NCBI RefSeq assembly: GCF_000719335.1
Contig: NZ_JOGB01000046.1
Span: 1-54,154, forward strand
Source of the DNA: Streptomyces sp. NRRL S-87
GTDB lineage: Bacteria; Actinomycetota; Actinomycetes; Streptomycetales; Streptomycetaceae
DNA length: 54,154 nt
Direction: 5' to 3'
Shown here: positions 17,820-29,172 of the stretch, in pieces
Position numbering within the stretch: position 1 is the first letter of the stretch
Layout: each line of letters starts with the position of its first letter
Made by a program: the position numbers and the translations under genes
The notes under the pieces: model-generated
Database searches by the model: none
The model's input: only the letters and a program-made list of their open reading frames with translations
Told to the model about the DNA's origin: nothing

Positions 17820-18704
17820 GTGCGCAATCGGGTGCGCGCAGCGGACGGGCGGCAGCTGTTGGTCGAGCGGCTGGGGGACCCCCGCGGCAGGCCGGTGTTC
17901 CTGCTCCACGGCATGCCCGGCAGCCGGCTGGGCCCGGCCCCCCGGGGCATGGTCCTCTACCAGCGCCGGACGCAGCTCATCGCGTACGACCGCCCCGGCT
18001 ACGGCGGCTCCGACCGCCACCCGGGCCGCACGGTCGCCGACGTCGCCCAGGACGTGGTCGCGATCGCCGACGCCCTCGGGATCGAGAAGTTCGCCGTCGC
18101 GGGCCGCTCGGGCGGCTCCCCGCACGCGCTGGCCTGCGCAGCGCTGCTGCCCGAGCGGGTCACCCGGACCGCGGCCCTGGTCGGGCTCGCGCCCTGGGAC
18201 GCCGACGGGCTGGACTGGTTCGACGGCATGACCGCGCACAACGTGCGCGAGTACTCCACCGCGGCCGTCGACCCCGAGGAGCTGGCCGCCCGGCTCATCC
18301 CCCGCGCCGACGGCATCCGCAAGGACCCCAAGCGGCTGCTCGACGAACTGCGCCCCGAACTCACCGACCACGACCGGATGATCGTCTCCGATGCCGGACT
18401 GCGCCGAATGCTGGAGGCCAACTACCGGGAAGGGCTGCGGACTTCCGCGTACGGCTGGATCGACGACGTCATCGCGCTGTGCAGCCCCTGGGGCTTCGAC
18501 CCGGCCGACATCCGCTGCCCGGTGCTGCTCTGGCACGGCGAGCAGGACGTGTTCTCCCCCGTCGGCCACTCGCGCTGGCTGGCCCGCCGGATCCCGGGCG
18601 CCACGGCCACCATCGAGCCGGCCGCGGCCCACTTCGCCGCCTTCCGCGCGCTGCCGCAGATCCTGACCTGGCTGCTGCGGGACCTTCCGGGGGCGGAGGG
18701 CTGA
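17820..18704 (+). CDS. Alpha/beta hydrolase
   Basis: The 294-residue protein has the hydrolase fold landmarks: oxyanion HGMPGS (30-35), the YDRPGYGGSD strand-loop (56-65), nucleophile elbow AGRSGGSP (S97), acid in WHGEQDVFSP (about 243) and His in AAAHFAAF (about 271). There is no signal peptide, so it acts in the cytoplasm. The substrate is unknown. It begins at GTG 17820 preceded by GAGGGAGG. The open frame runs upstream to 17607, but that part has no family similarity and is treated as leader. The gene converges on the FxSxx-COOH operon, with two hairpins between. Confidence 0.85.
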   Translation: MRNRVRAADGRQLLVERLGDPRGRPVFLLHGMPGSRLGPAPRGMVLYQRRTQLIAYDRPGYGGSDRHPGRTVADVAQDVVAIADALGIEKFAVAGRSGGSPHALACAALLPERVTRTAALVGLAPWDADGLDWFDGMTAHNVREYSTAAVDPEELAARLIPRADGIRKDPKRLLDELRPELTDHDRMIVSDAGLRRMLEANYREGLRTSAYGWIDDVIALCSPWGFDPADIRCPVLLWHGEQDVFSPVGHSRWLARRIPGATATIEPAAAHFAAFRALPQILTWLLRDLPGAEG

Positions 18705-18717
18705 TCCGGGGGCTCAG

Positions 18718-18756
18718 CCTCGGGTGGTGAGGTGGGGGCTGCGGCCCCACCCGAGG
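18718..18756. terminator. Hairpin terminator between convergent genes (1)
   Basis: CCTCGGGTGG and CCACCCGAGG form a 10-pair outer stem, with a competing inner stem GGTGGGG/CCCCACC. It starts 14 bases after the hydrolase stop codon. With the next hairpin it separates rightward hydrolase from leftward fxsT transcripts. Confidence 0.65.
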
Positions 18757-18779
18757 CGGGCGGGCAGCCCAGGCCGGCC

Positions 18780-18806
18780 GGCGCGCCGTTCGGCTGACGG
18801 CGCGCC
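18780..18806. terminator. Hairpin terminator between convergent genes (2)
   Basis: GGCGCGCCGT and ACGGCGCGCC make a perfect 10-pair stem with a 7-base loop. It lies 17 bases past the stop of the leftward fxsT gene and is likely its transcript end. Confidence 0.65.
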
Positions 18807-18823
18807 GTGCCGGGCGGCAGCGC

Positions 18824-21800
18824 TCACACCGCCAGCGGCTCCAGGTCCCGGTGCACCCGGCGGGCCTCCCGGGCGTACCGGGTCAGCGCGTGGTCGTCGC
18901 CCAGCTGCCGGGTCAGTTCCGCCACCGCCTCGGCCCGCAACCGGGCGGCCTCCTCCTTGCGGCCCAGCGCGTCGAAGGTGACCGACAGGTTGCAGGCCGC
19001 GCTCAGGGTGTCCGGGTGGTCGGCCCCGAGCGCCGCGCGCAGCCGCGCCAGCGCCGCCGTCTCCCACGCCAGCGCCCCTTCCGGATCGCCGAGGTCCGCC
19101 TGGGCGTTGGCCAGGTTGAGCGTGGCGCACACGGTGTGCGGATGGTCGTCGCCCAGGACGTCCCGCATGAGCGCGATCGCGTCCCTGAGCTTCTTCTCCG
19201 CCACCTCCGGAGCGCCCGTGCCCCAGTGGAAGACCGCGAGGTTGTTGATGGCGGCCAGGGTGTACGGGTGCCGGGCGCCCGGCACCTGCACGTACTCGTC
19301 CACCACCTCCTGGGCGGTGTCGCGGGCCAGCTCCGCCTCCCCCGCGGCGAAGAGGTCGGCCGCGTAGTTCAGGTCGCAGGCCAGCAGGTCGGGGTTGACC
19401 GAGGTGTACTTCGCCTTGTAGCGGGCCCGGGTGGCCTTGGTGAGCCGCAGCGCGTCCTCCAGCAGTCCGGCCCGGCGCAGCGACACCGCCAGGCTCTTGC
19501 CGGCCGCGAGCGTGCCGGGGAAGGCGCGGCCGAGTCCGTCCTTGTAGGTCTGGTACGTCCGGCTGAGCAGTTGCGCCGACTCCTCGTAGCGGCCGATCTC
19601 GCGCAGGTCGCGGGCGAGGTTCTGGGCGGAGGAGAGGGTGTACGGGTGCTCCGGGCCGAGCACCTCCTGGCGCAGCCGGTAGACCTCCTCGTCGATGTTG
19701 TACGCGTCCTTGTAGCGGCCGACCATCCGCAGGTTCAGGGCGCGGTTGTTGGCGGCCGCCAGGGTGCGCGGGTGCGCCTCGTGGAAGATCTGGCTGAAGC
19801 CGTTGTGCGCGGCGGTGGCCAGTTCCATGGCCTTGCCGTACTGGCCGAGCGCGCCGAGGTCCATGGCCAGGCCGCTGGTGGTCATGTAGGTGTGCGGGTG
19901 GGACGGGCCGAGGGCGGTCACCTGGCGTTCCAGCGTGACCTCGTCGAGCTCCTTGGCCTCCACGAACCGCCCTTGCGAGCGGAGGATGTTGGAGAGGTGG
20001 AAGCGCAGGTACAGGTACTGCAGGTCGCTGTCGCCGAGGGTCTCCTTCCACACCTCCCGCAGTTCGCTGGCCAGTTGGAAGGCGGCCTTGAAGTCGCCGC
20101 GCTTCCACAGGTAGCGGACCCGGTCGATGAGCAGCCGCCGGGTCTCCGGCTCGGAGCACAACCGGGCCTCGGAGGTGCCCAGATGGGGCCAGATGGTGGC
20201 GAACCGCGGCCAGGTGTCGGGGTTGTCTATCGGCTCGTCGTCGTCGGGCCGGGCACCGGCCAGGATGCGGTGGACGGCGTGCCGGGCCTCGCGCTGCTCC
20301 TCCTCGCTCAGCTGGGCCCGGATGACGGCCTGCACCAGGCGGTGGACCTGGATGCTGTTGCTGACCTGGTCGACCTTGGCCAGCGCGAAGCGGCCGATCT
20401 CGCGGATGACGCGGCCGAGGACCAGTTTCTCCTGGAGGGAGGCGTCGTACGGCTTGAGCGCGTCGATCATCTCCTTGCTGTAGAGGAGGTTCGCGCTGAT
20501 CGGCTCGGGCGCGAAGAAGGCGCACAGCTGGAGCAGCCGGACCGCGGCGGGCGAGCGGCTCTGCAGGCGCTCTATCGACACGTTCCACGTCGCGGCCACC
20601 GGCTCGGGGTAGCCGGCCGGCTGGTTGAGGCCGAGGACGCGGGCGGCCTGCTGGGCGAGCTGTTCGAGGTACGCGGAGACGGGCGTGGCGGTCTCGGCGA
20701 TCCAGGCGCCGGCCTGCTCGACGGCCAGCGGCAGGTCGCCGACGGCGGTGGCCACCTGGTCGGCGTCCTCCGCCGTCAGGCCGGGGGCGCGCCGCTGGAG
20801 GTGCTCGACGGACTCCTCGCGCAGGAACACGTCGACCGGGAGCGCGTCCCCGTACTGCGACCAGCTCTGGTTGCGGGAGGTGACGAGGATGTGGCCGGGT
20901 CCGCCGGGCGGGAAGAAGCGCTTGAGGGTCTCGGGGTCGTCGGCGTTGTCGAAGACCAGCAGCCAGCGGGAGGTGGGGCGGCCGAGCCGGAGCAGGTCGA
21001 TGGCCTCCTGGGAGGCGGCGGCCATGTCCTCGCCGGTCTGGGCGCCGAGCCGGACGGCGAGTTCGGCCAGGCCGGCCACCACGTCGTCGGTCTGCTCGGA
21101 GGAGATCCACCACACCAGGTCGTAGTCGGCCATGAAGCGGTGCACGTATTCGAGCGCCACCTGGGTCTTGCCCACGCCGCCGAGCCCGTACAGGGTCTGC
21201 GGCTGCGGCAGGACGACGGAGATCCCGCCGCCGAGCTGGTCGCGCATCCGCTCCAGGACGATGCTGCGGCCGGTGAATCCGGGGTTGCGGGGCGGCGCGT
21301 TCCAGATCTTGGGTACGGTGCCGGGGAACCGGGGTCCGGGGACCGCTCCGTCGGCGGGCTGGGCGGGCCGCTCCAGGGTGCGCAGCAGCGCCGTGGTGGC
21401 GTGCGCCTCGTCGAGCCGGAACAGGTCGACCGGGCTGCGGTCCAGGTACGGGGCGCTCAGCCGGACGTCGCCGACGCGCAGCGGTACGAGGCTGCGGCGG
21501 CTGGAGGTGAGGTCCTCGCCGGCGATCCGCTCCAGCGCCTCCATGGCGCGGGCGGACTTGGTGAAGGCGGCGGAGAGCAGGACCACGGTGCGGGACGGGC
21601 TCTCGCCGGGGGAGAAGCCGCCGCCGAGGGTGTCCCCGGAGCCGGCGGCCGCACCGGACGGCGCCCCGGCGGCCGGGCCGGATCCGAGGCCGGCACCGAC
21701 GCCGAGGCCCGCGCCGGGACCGCCACCGGGACCGCCGCCGGGCCGCTCGGCCGAGACGTCCCGCGGCACGACGCGGAAGCCGGCCCGGGTCAGGACGGAC

Positions 21801-22867
21801 TCGACCCAGTCGGCCCACATCCGGTTCTCGGCGACGTAGTGGAGCGCCAGGTCGGCGGGCAGGGCGGGGCGCCGCCGGGTGAAGGCGTCGCGGATCCGCA
21901 GCCGGACGTCCTCGGCGATCGCGGGCATGGCGGTGATCCGGCCCTCGCTGACCACGGAGGTCAGGCGTTCGAAGGCGGACAGGAGGGAGTTGGTCAGGCC
22001 CGCCTCGTCGCCGAAGGTGGCGAGGGTCTCCTCGTACGCGTAGTAGGGGCGGTACGGGATCTCCACCGCGCCCCAGTAGGCGGTGGCCTCGTCCCCGGCC
22101 AGCCCGCTGGGGAAGCGGTCGAACTTGACCCGGGCGAGGGCGCGCCCGGCGTCGGCCTTCTCCTTCTCGCCCTCGTCGATGCGCATGGGCACCGGGAAGA
22201 TCCGGATCCCGCGGTCGGCGTACCGCTCGTCGATCTGCCGGGCGACGGCGGCCGCGCCGTCGATGGACTGGTCGGAGAGGGTGAAGCAGTCGACCAGGAC
22301 GTCGGGTAGGTGCACGGTGCAGATGTCGGCGATGTCGCTCAGGCCGGTGCGGCTGTCGATCAGGACGTAGTCGTAGTGCTTCTTCATGTCCGCGCGCAGG
22401 GCGTCGAAGAACAGTCCGCCGCCGAGCCGGTCGTAGAAGTTGTCCCAGTCGAAGGTGGAGACGGTGGCCGAGTACTCGCGGTTCTGCCGGCCGGCGGAGA
22501 CGAAGTCGAGGGTGCCGCCGTCGGGGAACTCCCAGCCGAGCGCCTCGGGGGTGAGCGAGACGGCGTGCTGCTGGATGCGGGCGTAGTCGTGGTGCCAGTT
22601 CTCGGAGCGCTGCACGGGGCTGGTGGCGGCCCAGGCGTACTCGGTGATCAGGTCGATGACGCCGGTGGTGGCGCCGAGGGTGGAGGGGTCGAGGAAGGGG
22701 TGGAAGAAGCGGTGCAGGCCGGGGGCTTCGAGGTCCCAGTCGACGGCCAGCACCCGCTTGCCGTTGGCCGCGAGGATCCAGGCGGTGTTGGCCAGGGCCA
22801 TGGTGCGGCCGGTGCCGCCCTTGTACGAGTAGAAGGTGACGATGCGTCCGTCACGACTGGCCGTCAT
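18824..22867 (-). CDS. fxsT: FxSxx-COOH system protein FxsT: MinD-like + TIR-like + NB-ARC + TPR
   Basis: The 1347-residue protein has four parts. Residues 1-330 form a MinD/ParA-like P-loop NTPase with Walker A YKGGTGRT (15-22; Arg where the motif usually has Lys) and VDWDLEAPG (42-50). Residues about 335-500 look like a TIR/receiver fold (ALHYVAENRMWADWVESVL, then VVLLSAAFTKSARAMEAL), broken by a Gly-rich insert at 376-418. Residues 520-880 are NB-ARC with GLGGVGKT (561-568) and LLVFDNAD (D640). The rest is a run of TPR-type helices (HPHTYMTTSGLAMDLGALGQ, HPYTLSSAQNLARDLREIGR and more). This matches the TPR protein of FxSxx-COOH loci. It is the last gene of the operon; its start overlaps fxsC by 17 bases and has GGAGGA upstream. 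Confidence 0.9.
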   Translation of the reverse strand: MTASRDGRIVTFYSYKGGTGRTMALANTAWILAANGKRVLAVDWDLEAPGLHRFFHPFLDPSTLGATTGVIDLITEYAWAATSPVQRSENWHHDYARIQQHAVSLTPEALGWEFPDGGTLDFVSAGRQNREYSATVSTFDWDNFYDRLGGGLFFDALRADMKKHYDYVLIDSRTGLSDIADICTVHLPDVLVDCFTLSDQSIDGAAAVARQIDERYADRGIRIFPVPMRIDEGEKEKADAGRALARVKFDRFPSGLAGDEATAYWGAVEIPYRPYYAYEETLATFGDEAGLTNSLLSAFERLTSVVSEGRITAMPAIAEDVRLRIRDAFTRRRPALPADLALHYVAENRMWADWVESVLTRAGFRVVPRDVSAERPGGGPGGGPGAGLGVGAGLGSGPAAGAPSGAAAGSGDTLGGGFSPGESPSRTVVLLSAAFTKSARAMEALERIAGEDLTSSRRSLVPLRVGDVRLSAPYLDRSPVDLFRLDEAHATTALLRTLERPAQPADGAVPGPRFPGTVPKIWNAPPRNPGFTGRSIVLERMRDQLGGGISVVLPQPQTLYGLGGVGKTQVALEYVHRFMADYDLVWWISSEQTDDVVAGLAELAVRLGAQTGEDMAAASQEAIDLLRLGRPTSRWLLVFDNADDPETLKRFFPPGGPGHILVTSRNQSWSQYGDALPVDVFLREESVEHLQRRAPGLTAEDADQVATAVGDLPLAVEQAGAWIAETATPVSAYLEQLAQQAARVLGLNQPAGYPEPVAATWNVSIERLQSRSPAAVRLLQLCAFFAPEPISANLLYSKEMIDALKPYDASLQEKLVLGRVIREIGRFALAKVDQVSNSIQVHRLVQAVIRAQLSEEEQREARHAVHRILAGARPDDDEPIDNPDTWPRFATIWPHLGTSEARLCSEPETRRLLIDRVRYLWKRGDFKAAFQLASELREVWKETLGDSDLQYLYLRFHLSNILRSQGRFVEAKELDEVTLERQVTALGPSHPHTYMTTSGLAMDLGALGQYGKAMELATAAHNGFSQIFHEAHPRTLAAANNRALNLRMVGRYKDAYNIDEEVYRLRQEVLGPEHPYTLSSAQNLARDLREIGRYEESAQLLSRTYQTYKDGLGRAFPGTLAAGKSLAVSLRRAGLLEDALRLTKATRARYKAKYTSVNPDLLACDLNYAADLFAAGEAELARDTAQEVVDEYVQVPGARHPYTLAAINNLAVFHWGTGAPEVAEKKLRDAIALMRDVLGDDHPHTVCATLNLANAQADLGDPEGALAWETAALARLRAALGADHPDTLSAACNLSVTFDALGRKEEAARLRAEAVAELTRQLGDDHALTRYAREARRVHRDLEPLAV

Positions 22868-24245
22868 CCGTGTCCTCCGCATCGGTGTCGAGGTCTTCGT
22901 ACGAGGGCGAGGGCGGGGCCGGGGGCGTGGGCCCGGTGGTGCGGGGTGCCGGGGCCGCCGGGAAGGGCGGCGGGGGCGGTGGGGGCGGACCGGCCATGCC
23001 CATCGGCCCCAGCAGGCGCGGCCGTTCGGTGTGGCCGCCCGCCGGGGGGTAGACCTGGGCGTGTCTGAGGAACTGCTGCGCGGCGGCCTCGACCACCTGC
23101 GGCAGGATCTGCCCGAGGGCCTCCATGCTGGTCACACCGTTGGCCGCGGCCCGGCAGGCGGCCCGCCCCTGACTCATCTTGACCGGCATGGTGTCCTCCA
23201 GCCGATGGACCAACTCGCTCTCCTTCGCGCGGCTCTGGTGGTCGAACCGGTTCCACGGCACGACCACGCTGACCCAGGGCCGGTGCTCCTGGTCGAAGGC
23301 GGCCAGGCGCTGCCGGCGCTGCTCGTCGGCCACCGCCCAGCGGTCCACGATCAGGATCTCCGGGCGGCTGGGGGGCTGTTTGCTGTCGAAGTGCCCGGCC
23401 TCGTCGTCGAAGGAGGCCGTGGTGGTCTGGTAGTTGAGCGAGCGCACCAGGTCCTCGGCGACGTAGGCGACCGGGCGGCGGGCGTCGGGGTGGTACGGGT
23501 TCCAGTCCAGGGCGCTCTCGCCGTAGTACTCGGCGCTGCGGCCCTCGGGCAGGTCGTGCCGGGTGGCGGCGGCGACCGTGACCTGCATGGTGCGGGCGGT
23601 GCCGGCGGGGCCGGCGGGCGCCGCCCGGCGGGGGCCGAAGGCGCTGGGGACCATGCGGTAGTCGACGGGGCGGCTGGTGCGCAGCCGGACCGACTCGGCC
23701 ACGCGGACGATGCGCTTGGCGAGCTCGTAGACGGCCCGCTCGTACTGCTCGGCGTAGCTGCGGAGCTTGATCAGCCCGTACAGCCCGTCGGTGACGTAGC
23801 GGTCGCCGAAGGTGTTGTGGTTGAACTGCAACCGCTCGGCGGGACCGGGGAGTTGGTCGGGGGGTACCGGGACCCACAGGGCGGGCACGATGGCCTCGGC
23901 GGGCTCGTTGCTGAGTGCGCTGTGCCGGATGGCCCGCTCGGCGAAGGCGTACCACTCCTTGCCGCACATCTCGCTGGCGAAGTAGCGGGGCGAGAACAGC
24001 GGTACGAAGACCAGGCAGGAGGCGAGGGCGGCGCCCAGCCGCTCGGACCAGCCCTCGCCGGAGCGTATCTCCCGGTCCATGAAGCCCGCGGCCGAGCCGG
24101 CGGGCAGGTCCGTCAGGGCCATCACGTGGCCGCACAGGTCGCGGAAGAGCCGCTCGACCCACATGTCGGGGTCGGGCCCGCCCGCCGCGTACCTCGGGGT
24201 ATGCGCATAGCTGAGAAAGAAGTACGGCTGCGCTGCTGAAGGCAC
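22851..24245 (-). CDS. fxsC: FxSxx-COOH system TIR-like protein FxsC
   Basis: The 464-residue protein starts with a TIR-like domain: PYFFLSYAHTPR (7-18), FMDREIRSGEGWSERLGAAL (55-74, the TIR box 2 region), LVFVPLFSPRYFASEMCGKEW (78-98). E97 sits where TIR NADases have their catalytic Glu in the WC-x-x-E helix, but the Trp is Met here. A second alpha/beta segment follows (PEILIVDRWAV, PWVSVVVPWNRFD). The tail is a Pro run and then an acidic end (DLDTDAEDTDDGQS). The family TIR-like FxsC is a fixed partner of FxSxx-COOH peptides. The start is GTG 24245. The gene is 64 bases downstream of the acetyltransferase and overlaps fxsT. Confidence 0.9.
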   Translation of the reverse strand: MPSAAQPYFFLSYAHTPRYAAGGPDPDMWVERLFRDLCGHVMALTDLPAGSAAGFMDREIRSGEGWSERLGAALASCLVFVPLFSPRYFASEMCGKEWYAFAERAIRHSALSNEPAEAIVPALWVPVPPDQLPGPAERLQFNHNTFGDRYVTDGLYGLIKLRSYAEQYERAVYELAKRIVRVAESVRLRTSRPVDYRMVPSAFGPRRAAPAGPAGTARTMQVTVAAATRHDLPEGRSAEYYGESALDWNPYHPDARRPVAYVAEDLVRSLNYQTTTASFDDEAGHFDSKQPPSRPEILIVDRWAVADEQRRQRLAAFDQEHRPWVSVVVPWNRFDHQSRAKESELVHRLEDTMPVKMSQGRAACRAAANGVTSMEALGQILPQVVEAAAQQFLRHAQVYPPAGGHTERPRLLGPMGMAGPPPPPPPPFPAAPAPRTTGPTPPAPPSPSYEDLDTDAEDTDDGQS

Positions 24246-24309
24246 ACGACCCCCGTCCCGTGATGACCACTCACACCGAAAGGAACGATCCCCTTGGGCG
24301 TTCAGTCAA

Positions 24310-25080
24310 TCAACGCCTATTTTCGGTCATCCAGGCAAGGGCGTGGTCCACCGCATCGGTGATCTCGAACGTCATCGCGGCCGCCCCTCCCAGTCGCCCC
24401 CGGCGCAGTGCGGATTCCGGGAACGCGGAGCCGATCTCCGCGAAATCACCGTCGTCGAGCGCGACATCCTCGTACCCGATCCACCGCGCCTTACCCCGAA
24501 GGTTCACCACGCACCGGTACTCGCGCACCGGGGGTTTGGGAATGCGGTACTCCGCAAGATGGAAGGCGGTGCACACCGAGAATCCCACATTGATCAGGAG
24601 AATCTTCGCCCCCGCCCAGAACAGCGTTCCCAGCGGTGACTCCTCCCCCAGGTGGCATTCCGTCCGGTGCCCCGCGCACAGCCAGCGCGCGTCCCGTCCC
24701 AGCGCCGCGAACGACGTCTGCGGATGGGCGCTGCGGCGGGCCCCGGGGCTGGTCCGCACGCATTCCGCGAGCCGGCCCATGCCGTGGCTGGGGGTGCGCC
24801 ACGGGTCGAAGGCCGGCATGGCCGCCCGGAACGCCGCCGCCTCGGCCCCGGTCATCCCCGCGGTCAGCGCCAGGTGCGCGTCGGAGGTACGGGAGTTCTG
24901 CGCCGTGAAGGCCGGCACGACCAGGGTGCCGGCCGGACCGAGGACGTCGACCAGGGCGTCGCGCACCGCCTCCGCCGCCAGGCCCGTCCCGCGCAGTCCG
25001 GCGTGCACGAGCACCCGGTCGCCGGGGCCCAGTCCCAGCTCGCGCACCTGCGCGTGCAGGCCCGCGGCGCCCCCGCTCAC
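24310..25080 (-). CDS. AAC(3)-family N-acetyltransferase in the FxSxx-COOH operon
   Basis: The 256-residue protein matches aminoglycoside 3-N-acetyltransferases over its whole length: LGLGPGDRVLVHAGLR (15-30), TLVVPAFTAQNS (52-63), RSAHPQTSFAALG (116-128), GHRTECHLGEESPLGTLF (137-154) and ILLINVGFSVCTAFHLAE (160-177). The conserved His/Glu/Ser-Pro residues are present, so it is probably active. Its GTG start overlaps the FxsB stop (GTGA), which argues for work in the peptide pathway rather than for a free-standing antibiotic resistance gene. Acetylation of the peptide or of a nucleotide/amine product is possible but unproven. Confidence 0.85.
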   Translation of the reverse strand: MSGGAAGLHAQVRELGLGPGDRVLVHAGLRGTGLAAEAVRDALVDVLGPAGTLVVPAFTAQNSRTSDAHLALTAGMTGAEAAAFRAAMPAFDPWRTPSHGMGRLAECVRTSPGARRSAHPQTSFAALGRDARWLCAGHRTECHLGEESPLGTLFWAGAKILLINVGFSVCTAFHLAEYRIPKPPVREYRCVVNLRGKARWIGYEDVALDDGDFAEIGSAFPESALRRGRLGGAAAMTFEITDAVDHALAWMTENRR

Positions 25081-27392
25081 GCCCCCACCCCCTTCAGCTC
25101 CGCGCGCAGCTCCGTGACGAGGGCCCGGCCCGTCGTGGTGAGTTCGGCCGCGTCCGCCAGCCGGTCCAGCGCCCGCTCGATCCGGTCCGCCGGGCCCCCG
25201 TACGGTGGCGGCACCGCTCCCGTCGCCCGCCGGAAGCCCTCCACCGCCACCCGCTCGTGCACGTCGGCCAGCAGGCGGGACACCGGCACCGGCCGGTCGC
25301 GCCAGGGCGAGGGGTGCAGCCACTCCCCGTCCAGCGCGTACAGGTCGGCCACCTCCGCCAGCGCCCGCAGCCGGGCCCGCCGCCGCCCGGTCAGCAGGGC
25401 CAGTGCGGTCTCGCGCACCCCGCCGGCGTACGGCACTCCCAGCGCGCCGGGGCCGTGCCGCCCGGCCTCGCCGCGCCCCGTCCGCGGGCCGCCGGCCAGC
25501 GGGGTCAGGGTGGTCAGGCCGGCGGCCGCCTGCCGGGCCAGGGCGGGCACGGCGGTGTGCAGCAGCCGCCAGGCGTCCGACAGCCGCCGGCCCCACTCGG
25601 CGGCCTCGCCGGCGCCGAGCCGCAGCCGCGGCGGGCGGGTGAAGCAGTGCCGGTACGGATCGAGGTCGTCGAGGGCGGTCTCCGGCGGGCCGGCGCCGTC
25701 GTGCCCGGCCTCGCGCCAGCGGCGCACGGGCTGCCAGCGGGAGTCCGACCCGTCGGCCCCGAAGCGGTGCTCGCGGCGTCCGTCGCGCACGACGAACCCG
25801 CGGTCGGCGGCCCGCAGCGCGGCCCGGCCCGCCGTACCGGGGGCGCCGATCCGCAGCAGTCCGAGCGTGGGCAGGTAGACCTCGCCGTCCCGGTACGGGA
25901 CGGGCGCCGGCAGGTCGAGGCCGGCGCGCAGCACCGCCGCGGCGGCGAGGGCGGCCAGCCGTCGGGCGGCACCGGGCCCCGCGGGCCGGCCCGCACGCAG
26001 TTCCTCCAGCGTCTCCAGCAGCCAGGTGCGGGTGTACGGGTGGTCCAGCACGGGGTCGAGCGCGTCCCCGGACTCCTCGACGGCGCCGATCAGCTCCCAG
26101 GAACGGGCCCAGTCCTCTTCCCAGGAGCGGGCCCGGCCGGTGCCGCCCGTGCCGTACGCGCCGGCGGGGGCGGGCGCGTCGGCGAGGTCGTGGTGGAGGC
26201 GGGCGAGCAGGACGCGGGTGAGCTCGTGCTGGGCGGCGGCCAGCTCGACGGGGTCGGCCAGGGCGGGGGCGGTGCCGGAGCGGGCGGTGCGGCCGGCCAC
26301 GCCCTCGACGAGCTCCTTGAGGTCGGCGCAGTACACGGAGGGGTTCTGGAAGCCGGTGGCGGCCCGGTAGCGGTGGGTGTAGAGCCCGCCGCCGCACGAG
26401 CGTACGACGGGGCAGGCGCGGCATGCGGCGCTGACGCCCGCGAGGCCGAGTTGGCGGGCGCGCACCCCCGGGTGGGCGGCGACCTCGTCCAGGGAGTGGG
26501 TGAAGACGTCGAAGCCGGTGGCGGCGGCCCCCTCGTAGGCGCTCTTGAGGGAGTCGACCTGCTCCAGGGAGCCGTCGGTCTCGACGACGACGAGGTCGGT
26601 GGGGGCCAGCCCGAGGGACTCGGTGAGGCTGGGGCCGCCGGCCAGGGTGCTGAGCAGGGAGGAGAAGAGCCGGACGGGCACCGGCCGGCCGCCGTCCTCC
26701 CAGCGGTCGAAGGCGCGCAGCAGCCAGCGGGCGTAGGCGTCGGGGGCGCCGTCGGGGCGGGCGGGGGGCGTCTCCCACGTGGCGTGCGGCAGCAGGAAGT
26801 CGATGCGGGGCGGCTCGAGGGCGACGAGAGCGTCGAGGACGGCGACGGGGTCGTTCTCGACGTCGACGGTGCACAGCAGGCCCTGGTACAGGTGGCGGTA
26901 GGGGGCCGAGCGCAGGAGGTCGAGGGCCTTGAGGACCAGCGGGTGGCTGGTGCGGCCGTCGGCGAAGCGGCGGTGCCGGTCGTTGGCGGTGCGGTCCCCG
27001 TCGAGGGAGACGCCGACCTTCACGTCGTACTCGGCGAAGAGGTCGAGGTAACGGGGGCTCAGCTGGAGGCCGTTGGTGTGGATGCGGAGGTCGAGCTCCG
27101 CGGTGCCGGCGAGGGCGCGGGTGAACTCCTCGCACACCAGGCGCAGTCGGGCGGGGCCGGCCAAGAGCGGCTCCCCCCCGTGAAGGATCACGGTGACGGA
27201 GGGGAGCGCATGGTCCCGGGCGTGTTCGGCGAGCCGTGCCGCGGTCCGTGCGACGACCTCTTCCGAGATCGTTTTCGGCCGGGCGCGCCAGCTCTGGTCC
27301 GCGTGTTCGTAGACGTAGCAGTGATCACATGCGAGATCGCATCTGCTGTGTACCTTGAGGACGATCTCGCGAAATGCGATCAGGCCGGTCAT
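25077..27392 (-). CDS. fxsB: Radical SAM/SPASM maturase FxsB with inactivated HEXXH-type extension
   Basis: The 771-residue enzyme has the SAM-cluster motif C18-x3-C22-x2-C25 (CDLACDHCYVYEH), a HGGEPLL segment, and a SPASM region with CRACPVVRSCGGG and a later VYCADL. FxsB enzymes belong to the maturases that join an aromatic ring to the beta carbon two residues on, giving three-residue cyclophanes. Residues about 400-771 form the extension related to HEXXH-motif proteins. Where that motif (HE-x-x-H) is expected, before the RALAEVADLY helix, this protein has T668-G-R-R-R672. The extension should therefore lack its metal site. It is translated 30 bases after fxsA and coupled to the acetyltransferase. 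Confidence 0.92.
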   Translation of the reverse strand: MTGLIAFREIVLKVHSRCDLACDHCYVYEHADQSWRARPKTISEEVVARTAARLAEHARDHALPSVTVILHGGEPLLAGPARLRLVCEEFTRALAGTAELDLRIHTNGLQLSPRYLDLFAEYDVKVGVSLDGDRTANDRHRRFADGRTSHPLVLKALDLLRSAPYRHLYQGLLCTVDVENDPVAVLDALVALEPPRIDFLLPHATWETPPARPDGAPDAYARWLLRAFDRWEDGGRPVPVRLFSSLLSTLAGGPSLTESLGLAPTDLVVVETDGSLEQVDSLKSAYEGAAATGFDVFTHSLDEVAAHPGVRARQLGLAGVSAACRACPVVRSCGGGLYTHRYRAATGFQNPSVYCADLKELVEGVAGRTARSGTAPALADPVELAAAQHELTRVLLARLHHDLADAPAPAGAYGTGGTGRARSWEEDWARSWELIGAVEESGDALDPVLDHPYTRTWLLETLEELRAGRPAGPGAARRLAALAAAAVLRAGLDLPAPVPYRDGEVYLPTLGLLRIGAPGTAGRAALRAADRGFVVRDGRREHRFGADGSDSRWQPVRRWREAGHDGAGPPETALDDLDPYRHCFTRPPRLRLGAGEAAEWGRRLSDAWRLLHTAVPALARQAAAGLTTLTPLAGGPRTGRGEAGRHGPGALGVPYAGGVRETALALLTGRRRARLRALAEVADLYALDGEWLHPSPWRDRPVPVSRLLADVHERVAVEGFRRATGAVPPPYGGPADRIERALDRLADAAELTTTGRALVTELRAELKGVGA

Positions 27393-27422
27393 TCCACAGA
27401 GGATAGAGCCGGGAAGTCGGTG

Positions 27423-27584
27423 TTAGAGCGCCGAGTTGAAGATCGGGCTCTGGACCGGACGGCCGGATTCGGACGGCAGCACCCGACCCAGTACGGCCTC
27501 CGCAGACACGCTGCGTACGTCGATGTCGGCGAGGGAGACGCGACGGGCCTTGTCCGCATCGGCGCGGGTTGCGGTGGTGTTCAC
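27423..27584 (-). CDS. fxsA: FxSxx-COOH peptide precursor
   Basis: The 53-residue precursor has a leader (VNTTATRADADKARRVSLAD, then IDVRSVSAEAVLGRVLP) and ends F49-N-S-A-L53-COOH, the diagnostic FxSxx terminus. The predicted product carries a cyclophane between Phe49 and Ser51, made by FxsB. The GTG at 27584 is chosen because AAGGA lies 9 bases upstream. A longer frame reaches 27719 but crosses the promoter and lacks codon bias. It is the first gene of the operon fxsA-fxsB-acetyltransferase-fxsC-fxsT. Whether the peptide is secreted, cut from the leader or stays in the cell is unknown. Confidence 0.9.
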   Translation of the reverse strand: MNTTATRADADKARRVSLADIDVRSVSAEAVLGRVLPSESGRPVQSPIFNSAL

Positions 27585-27643
27585 GGCAGTCCTTAGAGAA
27601 TCGGCATGGAAATGACAACTGCGACGCGCTAGTGTCGGTGGGG

Positions 27644-27671
27644 ACTTTACTCTTCTGCACCCCATAGGCAA
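27644..27671 (-). promoter_or_regulatory. Candidate promoter of the FxSxx-COOH operon
   Basis: On the minus strand TTGCCT (27671-27666) and TAAAGT (27649-27644) are separated by 16 bases, a reasonable vegetative sigma-factor pattern. The -10 box lies 60 bases before the fxsA start. The 27585-27748 region has lower GC than its surroundings and drives two divergent genes. Confidence 0.3.
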
Positions 27672-27748
27672 CCGCAAGACATGAGGCGCGGTCAGGCGTT
27701 CTATCGAAAGAGTGAGCACCGGAACGGCGAACTGGGGGGTGAGCTGTG

Positions 27749-28672
27749 ATGGAAAATCGCGGATCTCCGAACGGCACGACTTTCAGGAACGGGGACCTCC
27801 CGGCGCTTTTCCACCACGCGGACCGGGCCGCGGTCGCGCGCCAGCGGGAGTCCGTCCGGGCCGTGCGCGCCCAGCTCGTGCTGCTCCTGGCGGCGGCGGC
27901 CGCCTCGGCCCTGCCGTCCGGCGTGGCCCTGGGCGCGGTACGGCCGTTCGGGCTGCTGAGCCTGCTGGCGTACGGGGGCGTGCTGGCGATCGGGGTGCAC
28001 AGCACCCGGCGCCGGGCGCGCCCGCAGTGGCAGCTCAACCGGTCCGCGGCGGAGTTCATCAAGTCGCTTGCCTGGCGGTACGCCGTTCACGGTGCGCCTT
28101 TCGGGGCGGCTGGAGCCGACGACGAAGAGCTGTACCGTACCCGGCTGGAGTCGGGGTTGGGCGAGCTCAGGAAGATGGGCTGGGCGGACCCGCGGCAGAC
28201 CGGCGAGGTCCCGCAGGGCGCCGAGATAACGGTCCCCATGGAGCAGTTGCGGGGCCGGGTCTACGCGGTACGGCGCGATACGTACGTCCGCGACCGGCTG
28301 ATCGAGCAGCGCAACTGGTACCGCCGCAGGACCGAGGCGTCCCGGCGGGCGACGGCGCTGTGGTCGTGGACGATCGTGCTGCTGACGGTGCTCGGTCTGC
28401 TGTCCGCCCTGTTCAGGACCTTCGGCCCGGGCCCGGCGGGAACGCTCCCGGCACTGCTGAGCGCGGCCGCGGCGGCCGCGATCGCCTGGCACGAGATGCG
28501 GCGGCACCATCCGCTGATCGAGGCGCACACGCTCATCGAGCAGGACCTGGCGGCGATGATGGTCGTCATGCAGACCACCATCACGGAGGACCAGTGGCCG
28601 TCGGCCGTCTACGAGACCGAGCGCTACGTCTCCCCCCAGCACACCGACTGGCTGGCGCGGCACAGCAGTTGA
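27749..28672 (+). CDS. DUF4231/SLATT-type four-helix membrane protein
   Basis: The 307-residue protein has two membrane helices near the N-terminus (about 42-60 and 67-84), a charged cytoplasmic region with YRTRLESGLGELRKMGW and RDRLIEQRNWYRRR, then two more helices (about 203-223 and 232-249) and a soluble tail. The spacing, with two paired helices and a conserved R/Q-x-x-Y helix before the second pair, is that of DUF4231/SLATT proteins. These are predicted membrane effectors in nucleotide-controlled bacterial conflict systems. ATG 27749 follows GGGGGGTGAG. The gene is divergent from fxsA and converges, 20 bases away, on a SLOG-like gene. The link to the FxSxx system is by position only. Confidence 0.75.
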   Translation: MENRGSPNGTTFRNGDLPALFHHADRAAVARQRESVRAVRAQLVLLLAAAAASALPSGVALGAVRPFGLLSLLAYGGVLAIGVHSTRRRARPQWQLNRSAAEFIKSLAWRYAVHGAPFGAAGADDEELYRTRLESGLGELRKMGWADPRQTGEVPQGAEITVPMEQLRGRVYAVRRDTYVRDRLIEQRNWYRRRTEASRRATALWSWTIVLLTVLGLLSALFRTFGPGPAGTLPALLSAAAAAAIAWHEMRRHHPLIEAHTLIEQDLAAMMVVMQTTITEDQWPSAVYETERYVSPQHTDWLARHSS

Positions 28673-28692
28673 CGTAGCGTCGGATACGGCGA

Positions 28693-29172
28693 TCAGTCCC
28701 TGCGGACCCCTTCCCGCCAGATGACCGTGACCGGCTTCCCGAGGGACCGCGCGTACGCGACGACGTCGCCGGTGCCGCCCCGGCCGCGGGCGGGCCGGCC
28801 GTCCCAGACCGCGACCAGCCGGTCGCAGGCGTCGGCGATGAAGGCGCCGGCCGCGTAGTACGCCTCGTCCGTCGAGTGGGCGTGGTCCATCCGGACCTCC
28901 TGCGCGGCCCGGGCCCTCAGCCGCCGGTAGCCGTCCAGGGCGCCGGGGTCGGTGAAGGTCTGCTCGTAGTCACCGCTCGGGATGACGACGGTCAGGTCGG
29001 CCCCGCAGTCGAGCGCGACCTCGGCGAAGATCTGGTCGGCGCCCTCGGCGAGGCAGGACAGGGCCTCCAGGGGGCCCTCGTGGGCGCCCAGCAGGGCACG
29101 GAGCCCCTCGCGGACGAAGGCGGTCAGCTCAGCCGGTATCGCCCGGTGGCCGGTCACTCCGATCCGCTTCAT
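28693..29172 (-). CDS. SLOG-like (DprA/LOG-type Rossmann) nucleotide-binding protein
   Basis: The 159-residue protein opens with IGVTGHRAIP (4-13) and has LSCLAEGADQIFAEVAL, TVVIPSGDYEQTF, a FIADACDRLVAVWDG strand and a C-terminal GGTGDVVAYARSLGKPVTVIW. The final G-G-T-x-D-x-V-x-x-A helix start and the first GxTGHR loop are the signature of SLOG folds, which bind nucleotides or their derivatives. SLOG genes are often found with SLATT genes in predicted defence modules, and here the two are 20 bases apart and convergent. Cytoplasmic. The ligand is unknown. Confidence 0.75.
   Translation of the reverse strand: MKRIGVTGHRAIPAELTAFVREGLRALLGAHEGPLEALSCLAEGADQIFAEVALDCGADLTVVIPSGDYEQTFTDPGALDGYRRLRARAAQEVRMDHAHSTDEAYYAAGAFIADACDRLVAVWDGRPARGRGGTGDVVAYARSLGKPVTVIWREGVRRD

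Follow-up and report, generated by a model that had tools for sequence, protein, structure and literature searches.

A 54,154-nucleotide stretch of DNA from Streptomyces sp. NRRL S-87 (contig NZ_JOGB01000046.1, positions 1 to 54,154; here called the window) encodes a peptide system of the FxSxx-COOH type, which we tentatively, at somewhat short of an even chance, interpret as an intracellular conflict-type signalling pathway, serving defence or self-sacrifice, with a ribosomal peptide as one input. The five fxs genes lie on the minus strand from 27584 to 18824 in the order fxsA, fxsBH, an AAC(3)-type gene, fxsC and fxsT. Two further parts had been overlooked in the initial annotation of this DNA, namely a SLATT gene diverging from fxsA (its start is 164 bases away) and a SLOG gene behind it. 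The parts, their linkage, a kept glutamate in FxsC, the SLOG fold and the separability of the FxsC-FxsT pair are read from sequence or from models.

The initial annotation had described a leftward operon of five genes, and the gene set, the coordinates and the family assignments all held when family models were applied; the profile searches that it had proposed with the FxsA, FxsB, FxsC and FxsT models were run, and all four proteins scored above the curated cut-offs. The GTGA overlap of fxsB with the AAC gene and the 17-base overlap of fxsC with fxsT proved exact, and a 64-base gap separates the AAC gene from fxsC. Across related loci, the two genes overlap in 76 of 90 adjacent pairs for fxsC and fxsT and in 27 of 44 for fxsB and the AAC gene. 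A pattern scan of positions 18600-28700 found no sigma-70 consensus promoter.

27423..27584, minus strand: fxsA, precursor peptide (GTG start at 27584, stop ending at 27423, 53 aa)
27426..27440, minus strand: codons of the FNSAL core (Phe49-Asn50-Ser51-Ala52-Leu53), from the translation
25077..27392, minus strand: fxsBH, predicted radical SAM/SPASM cyclophane maturase with an inactivated HExxH hydroxylase extension, from family models
24310..25080, minus strand: AAC(3)-fold acyltransferase, PF02522
22851..24245, minus strand: fxsC, TIR-type effector with a C-terminal flavodoxin-like domain, from family models
23955-23957, minus strand: codon of Glu97 in fxsC, from alignment
18824..22867, minus strand: fxsT, with a MinD-like KGGTGRT domain, a degenerate TIR domain, an NB-ARC STAND ATPase and kinesin-light-chain type TPRs

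For comparison, 100 stretches were fetched around FxsB matches scoring above 505 bits, excluding the window's own match and one on a 6-kb contig that was fetched separately. The fetched set includes two loci whose FxsB lacks the extension (L131, L132) and the second FxsB of the window's own genome (L133); the 100 loci counted below are the fetched stretches plus the window, with L133 excluded. FxsB, FxsC and FxsT were all present in 90 of the 100, referred to as full loci, for which gene counts mean presence anywhere in the stretch. FxsB was found above its cut-off in 155 of 245 genomes of the order, and the named members among the 120 FxsC relatives listed were Streptomyces.

The precursor and its tailoring enzymes

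Translation confirmed the annotated 53-residue precursor ending in FNSAL, which passes the TIGR04268 model marginally (28.7 bits, cut-off 28). An open reading frame (ORF) ending in F-x-S-x-x was found upstream of FxsB in 88 of the 100 loci vs none of 200 control stretches, with L, V or I as the C-terminal residue in 86 of the 88 precursors and A or S preceding it in 83. Among 11 examined loci without F-x-S, seven had alanine in place of the serine, the ends being FDAAL, FNAGL, FDASL, FDASI, FDAII and, twice, FNASL; given these ORFs, the published F-x-S motif may be too narrow. The small F-x-A-x-x ORFs lie upstream of FxsB in L064, L100, L102, L120, L126, L127 and L128. Because alanine replaces serine in these loci, the bond is predicted to involve the C-beta, and the product is probably a three-residue cyclophane joining Phe49 to the C-beta of Ser51.

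FxsBH scored 584 bits against TIGR04269 (cut-off 370) and 377 bits against NF040587 (cut-off 225), the latter titled 'inactivated beta-hydroxylase extension form'. HExxH is absent from the window FxsBH, and the pattern is present in 33 of 98 long FxsBH proteins, a few perhaps by chance. The closest solved structure to the radical SAM part was ChlB (9gm3, 'ChlB radical SAM domain', 268 bits), and to the extension 22nu (101 bits). The family models, together with ChlB as the nearest solved radical SAM enzyme, support the kind of chemistry previously annotated, which is of the cyclophane type. ChlBH is described in PMC12636437, which cites the work, as a fused cyclophane synthase and alpha-ketoglutarate (alpha-KG)-HExxH beta-hydroxylase that both makes the cyclophane and beta-hydroxylates. 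The window protein likewise joins a radical SAM/SPASM domain to an HExxH-type extension; it differs in lacking HExxH and in having a substrate that ends in FxSxx-COOH.

The AAC(3)-type assignment was borne out by PF02522 (232 bits, gathering score 25), making the protein a member of the Antibiotic_NAT fold family. It does not belong to the aminoglycoside AAC(3) resistance equivalog, as its score against NCBIfam AAC_3 was 143.2 bits vs a cut-off of 270. The nearest solved structure was FrbF (135 bits). The enzyme is probably a peptide-tailoring acyltransferase, because its gene overlaps fxsB, because two loci (L134:9577-11463 and L135:9297-11165) encode a single protein with both an AAC(3)-fold and an HExxH peptide hydroxylase domain, and because FxsA-FxsB-AAC occur in L131 and L132 with FxsC and FxsT not near. 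The L134 fusion scored 149 bits against TIGR04267 and 261 bits against PF02522, and the L135 fusion was recognized by our own profiles and by its sequence.

The FxsC-FxsT pair and the flanking genes

FxsC scored 233 bits against NF040588 (cut-off 130), 220 bits against TIGR04276 (cut-off 55) and 34.2 bits against TIR_2 (cut-off 28), and its Glu97 was invariant in all 25 rows selected for alignment. FxsT scored 1043 bits against NF040586 (cut-off 300) and 148 bits against NF047398; its domains comprise NB-ARC (28.9 bits, cut-off 23.5), TIR_2 (28.2 bits, just reaching the cut-off of 28), DUF7779 and TPRs, the last spanning residues ~960-1347 and matching the KLC1 TPRs with 64 bits. Across 93 aligned FxsT rows the NB-ARC motifs were conserved, and the TIR-like stretch had no conserved glutamate.

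The initial annotation had regarded this TIR/NB-ARC/TPR pair as fixed to the peptide. Sixteen stretches with FxsC and no listed FxsB were hand-picked by eye, and seven of these encode FxsC-FxsT without FxsB within 19 kb (L258, L259, L260, L263, L264, L265 and L271); the remaining nine comprise two diverged pairs, one FxsC with a short FxsT piece, five fused FxsC proteins and one stretch with FxsB. FxsC-FxsT can thus be encoded apart from FxsB, and the pair is not strictly fixed. FxsB is, however, present elsewhere in six of the seven genomes, so the peptide could act in trans. G191, for instance, carries FxsA-B-AAC (L131) and FxsC-FxsT (L258) on separate contigs, and G205 is the only one of the seven without FxsB above the cut-off anywhere.

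Whole FxsC also forms the C-terminus of 1337-1566 aa proteins on three plasmids, NZ_CP108204 (L255), NZ_CP108290 (L256) and NZ_CP109474 (L257), where it stands behind an AAA/MoxR gene; on the first two, the gene adjoining the fusion encodes VMAP domains. Two of the three plasmids were typed as mobilizable. FxsB was not found on any of the three, where FxsA was not searched for. A reading of the fusion partner as a vWA protein was dropped, as the fusion gave no vWA match. A distant FxsC-like stretch (24.9% identity) was also seen on the Rhizobium plasmid NZ_CP140877.1 (722364-723302).

The genes flanking the window operon are as follows.

27585..27748, no strand: divergent stretch of 164 bases between fxsA and the SLATT gene
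27749..28672, plus strand: SLATT_3 and SLATT_1 membrane protein, predicted pore-type effector, PF18184 and PF18181
28693..29172, minus strand: SLOG-fold protein without a family model, predicted sensor of a nucleotide or ADP-ribose derivative
17820..18704, plus strand: alpha/beta hydrolase (ABH), convergent to fxsT, PF00561 (71 bits)

The SLATT protein scored 131 bits against PF18184 and 122 bits against PF18181 (gathering scores 26.3), as well as 173 bits against NF033610; its neighbor has the Rossmann-like SLOG fold (YpsA/DprA/LOG), and the closest solved structure to the ABH was 9wlv (184 bits). The 90 full loci contained ABH in 86, SLOG in 56, SLATT in 52, SLOG together with SLATT in 50, and AAC in 41, and when the 80 nearest named loci were retrieved with FxsC as the query, 75 had both SLOG and SLATT and 76 had ABH. 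Conversely, SLATT_3 matches above 100 bits numbered 73 in the 245 genomes of the order, of which 60 lay within ~11 kb of FxsB when coordinates were compared by eye; the stretches fetched for the other 13 show no FxsB. Counted per genome and ignoring relatedness, SLATT_3 was present in 61 of 87 genomes with a high-scoring FxsB vs 10 of 158 without. In L103 the hydrolase gene is followed by a tandem pair of SLATT genes, located 9.9 to 11.8 kb downstream from where FxsB starts.

Read in the direction of the fxs genes, the usual order is SLOG, SLATT on the opposite strand, fxsA, fxsB, optionally AAC, fxsC, fxsT, and ABH on the opposite strand. In eight loci the segment from fxsA to fxsT has the opposite orientation while its flanks are unchanged, so that SLATT follows fxsT. 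The order in L134 is fxsA, fxsC, fxsT, fxsB, the HExxH-AAC fusion and SLATT, all in one direction, followed by SLOG on the opposite strand; L135 shows the same order from fxsC on, where its stretch ends. At six loci of other lineages, SLOG adjoins a protein of ~600 aa in place of SLATT. One such partner was scanned and contained TrkA_N and RyR; RyR matches were found at all six loci, accounting for six of the ten in the 245 genomes, and two of the remaining four (G202, G205) adjoin another SLOG match.

A related theme recurs beside FxsC-FxsT pairs lacking FxsB. L265 carries a SLOG protein (143 bits, own profile) and the octameric membrane protein 8xMP (152 bits), and L271 a DUF4231 protein (51 bits). 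At L258:7316-8934, between an FxsT gene and the FxsC-FxsT pair, lie a TIR gene (PADLOC TIR-TM, 181 bits) and, behind it, a gene for ThsA-Macro (PADLOC 341 bits, Pfam 197 bits), which together have the composition of a Thoeris pair of the Macro type. These neighborhoods suggest that a candidate sensor of a NAD derivative and a membrane protein recurrently adjoin FxsC/FxsT.

The SLOG-SLATT genes could instead be a separate module, functionally unrelated to fxs and found beside it because both use one genomic hot spot, a reading that we regard as unlikely. Its appeal comes from the site itself, where both sets occur in many Streptomyces. Nine stretches picked for ABH without a high-scoring FxsB (L150-L158) show what else occupies it: L150, L152, L154, L156 and, by group count, L157 and L158 have an S1-type protease gene and a 211-246 aa gene in one direction, facing ABH. 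In 13 loci, relatives of the 211-246 aa gene (L036_4 etc.; hydrophobic N-terminus by eye) separate SLATT from fxsA. The names S1 protease and DUF1684 are labels assigned by eye. ABH and the 211-246 aa gene are probably residents of the site, because both are found where fxs is absent, and the arrangement suggests that SLOG-SLATT and fxs are two cassettes placed there. SLOG-SLATT is moreover found without fxs in L137 and L138. Against functional independence stand the position of SLATT inside the fxs operon in L134 and L135, the SLOG genes of other lineages that accompany different membrane proteins next to FxsC/FxsT, and L150-L158, in which no SLOG, SLATT or fxs gene was found.

A proposed pathway and its competitors

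In the pathway that we propose, FxsBH would cross-link the FxsA C-terminus from the Phe49 ring to the Ser51 C-beta, and the AAC(3)-fold enzyme would probably acylate FxsA. FxsT, a STAND ATPase with kinesin-light-chain type TPRs, would act as the sensor, with the modified C-terminal peptide binding it and tuning or triggering it. FxsC, activated by FxsT, would cleave NAD+ through its TIR domain to yield an ADP-ribose-type messenger; the SLOG protein would sense this messenger, and the SLATT membrane pore would execute the response. The catalytic steps, the messenger, the contact between peptide and FxsT, the pore and the outcome for the cell are what we infer from the parts.

Several observations weigh against this pathway. 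Binding of the peptide to FxsT or FxsC, which the initial annotation had inferred, is putative, and that the peptide is a ligand of FxsT has, taken alone, about one chance in three. The glutamate motif was present in 14 of 17 further FxsC-labelled genes, one of the misses being a fragment; Glu97 aligns with the C-x-x-E of the plant SNC1 TIR domain in a weak profile match (E 0.89), which together with general TIR motifs makes it the candidate catalytic residue. The TIR part of FxsC was poorly modelled (predicted local distance difference test score, pLDDT, <50). No PADLOC model, including those for Thoeris, matched FxsC or the SLATT protein, the sole PADLOC match of FxsT was PDC-M28B over the MinD-like part, and phage sequences gave no match to FxsC. 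No SLOG was found in the fetched stretch of 34 of the 90 full loci and no SLATT in 38; the module would there be elsewhere or unneeded. L137 and L138 show the reverse, with SLOG-SLATT occupying the site and fxs missing from it; one of the two has an AAC gene. Finally, the locus occupies one conserved site in many Streptomyces, so the counts are inflated by shared descent.

The missing phage match would also suit a role in developmental or metabolic signalling in place of defence, with the MinD-like domain tying the locus to cell division or sporulation, which we consider about as unlikely as an unrelated SLOG-SLATT module. The chromosomal, syntenic site in Streptomyces is in keeping with such a role, as is the distribution of FxsC, which exceeded its cut-off in 86 of 245 genomes of the order vs 5 of 396 phylum-wide. 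Against it count the patchy presence of the locus within one genus, its incompleteness in places, the plasmid-borne fusion forms and the TIR and ThsA-Macro pair of L258.

Slightly less probable again is that the modified peptide works as an antitoxin-like leash on FxsT/FxsC, both being freed when synthesis is halted, for example by phage take-over. The small fxsA as first gene would suit a leash, as would the small-hydrophobic C-terminus, a feature resembling protease degrons, and with FxsB elsewhere in six of seven genomes the leash could act in trans; against it counts G205, one clean case only, which has FxsC-FxsT and no FxsB above the cut-off. The least likely of the alternatives is an exported antibiotic or bacteriocin, with FxsC/FxsT merely regulating or self-protecting: cross-linked peptides such as darobactin are antibiotics according to PMC9055067, and a gene resembling a secreted S1-type protease lies nearby (labelled by eye, no family scan). 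Against this reading, visual inspection of the 70 N-terminal residues of the 45 largest neighbor families revealed no peptide exporter or leader peptidase (one permease-like family occurs, in 4 loci), the FxsC-FxsT genes also occur separately from FxsB, and FxsC is fused into VMAP-type systems.

Relation to known systems

A standalone FxSxx-COOH peptide-processing system, its product guessed to be a 'peptide toxin or signal', was described by Kaur et al. 2020 (PMC7159879), in which, as in the window, a single actinobacterial locus encodes the precursor, an enzyme of the radical SAM/SPASM type and an AP-ATPase that carries TPRs and a MinD-like domain; the window FxsC is also recognized by the NCBIfam models. 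In the text passages covered, as distinct from figures and supplements, SLOG, SLATT and AAC are not tied to FxSxx. The HExxH component is there a protein, read as a peptidase, whereas in the window it is a fused, inactivated domain, and the family was made a hydroxylase in later work (PMC12636437). TIR-SLATT neighborhoods are reported from firmicute phages (PMC9503650) and resemble the window in placing a TIR domain beside a two-transmembrane (2TM) SLATT protein; peptide, STAND protein and SLOG are not named in the part of that source available. As far as these sources extend, the standalone system and TIR-SLATT pairs are known, and the ties to SLOG, SLATT and AAC appear new.

Thoeris (TIR protein ThsB with a SLOG- or Macro-type ThsA) is likewise comparable in combining a TIR protein with a candidate SLOG-fold sensor, and a TIR and ThsA-Macro pair is embedded in the related locus L258. 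The window differs in that sensor and membrane protein are separate and in that the gene for the TIR protein is part of an operon with peptide and STAND genes. No PADLOC Thoeris model matches FxsC or SLATT, SLOG being outside that test. VMAP-MoxR-vWA ternary conflict systems are linked to fxs by the plasmid fusions and by one such system in the window's own genome (contig C85), whereas no VMAP, MoxR or vWA gene was seen in the window locus, where not every neighbor was scanned. The C85 locus (L133, 5273-25272) thereby gives the genome two FxSxx-type systems, this one being of the VMAP type and encoding a trypsin-VMAP-C protein, an AAA ATPase, a SAV_2336-type protein, a short FxsB, a separate HExxH hydroxylase and a TIR-NB-ARC-TPR FxsT; no precursor was found in it.

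A fuller version of the proposed pathway, doubtful as a joint claim, is that the cross-linked C-terminal peptide gates the NOD-like receptor (NLR)-type FxsT and through it FxsC, whose product would be read by exchangeable cassettes of a SLOG or Macro sensor and a membrane effector. The locus would then serve multicellular actinobacteria as a modular pathway for cell suicide or alarm, one able to trade parts with Thoeris and VMAP systems. To our knowledge, with no search aimed at the point, there is no case of a ribosomally synthesized and post-translationally modified peptide (RiPP) acting as an internal immune ligand, which is the role the peptide would have if this were true. FxsB enzymes are common in the order. 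The fusion of AAC(3) to a hydroxylase makes the peptide a likely substrate of the AAC(3)-fold enzyme, and the SLOG/SLATT and other exchangeable cassettes offer a concrete output, an ADP-ribose-type messenger that would act on a membrane effector.
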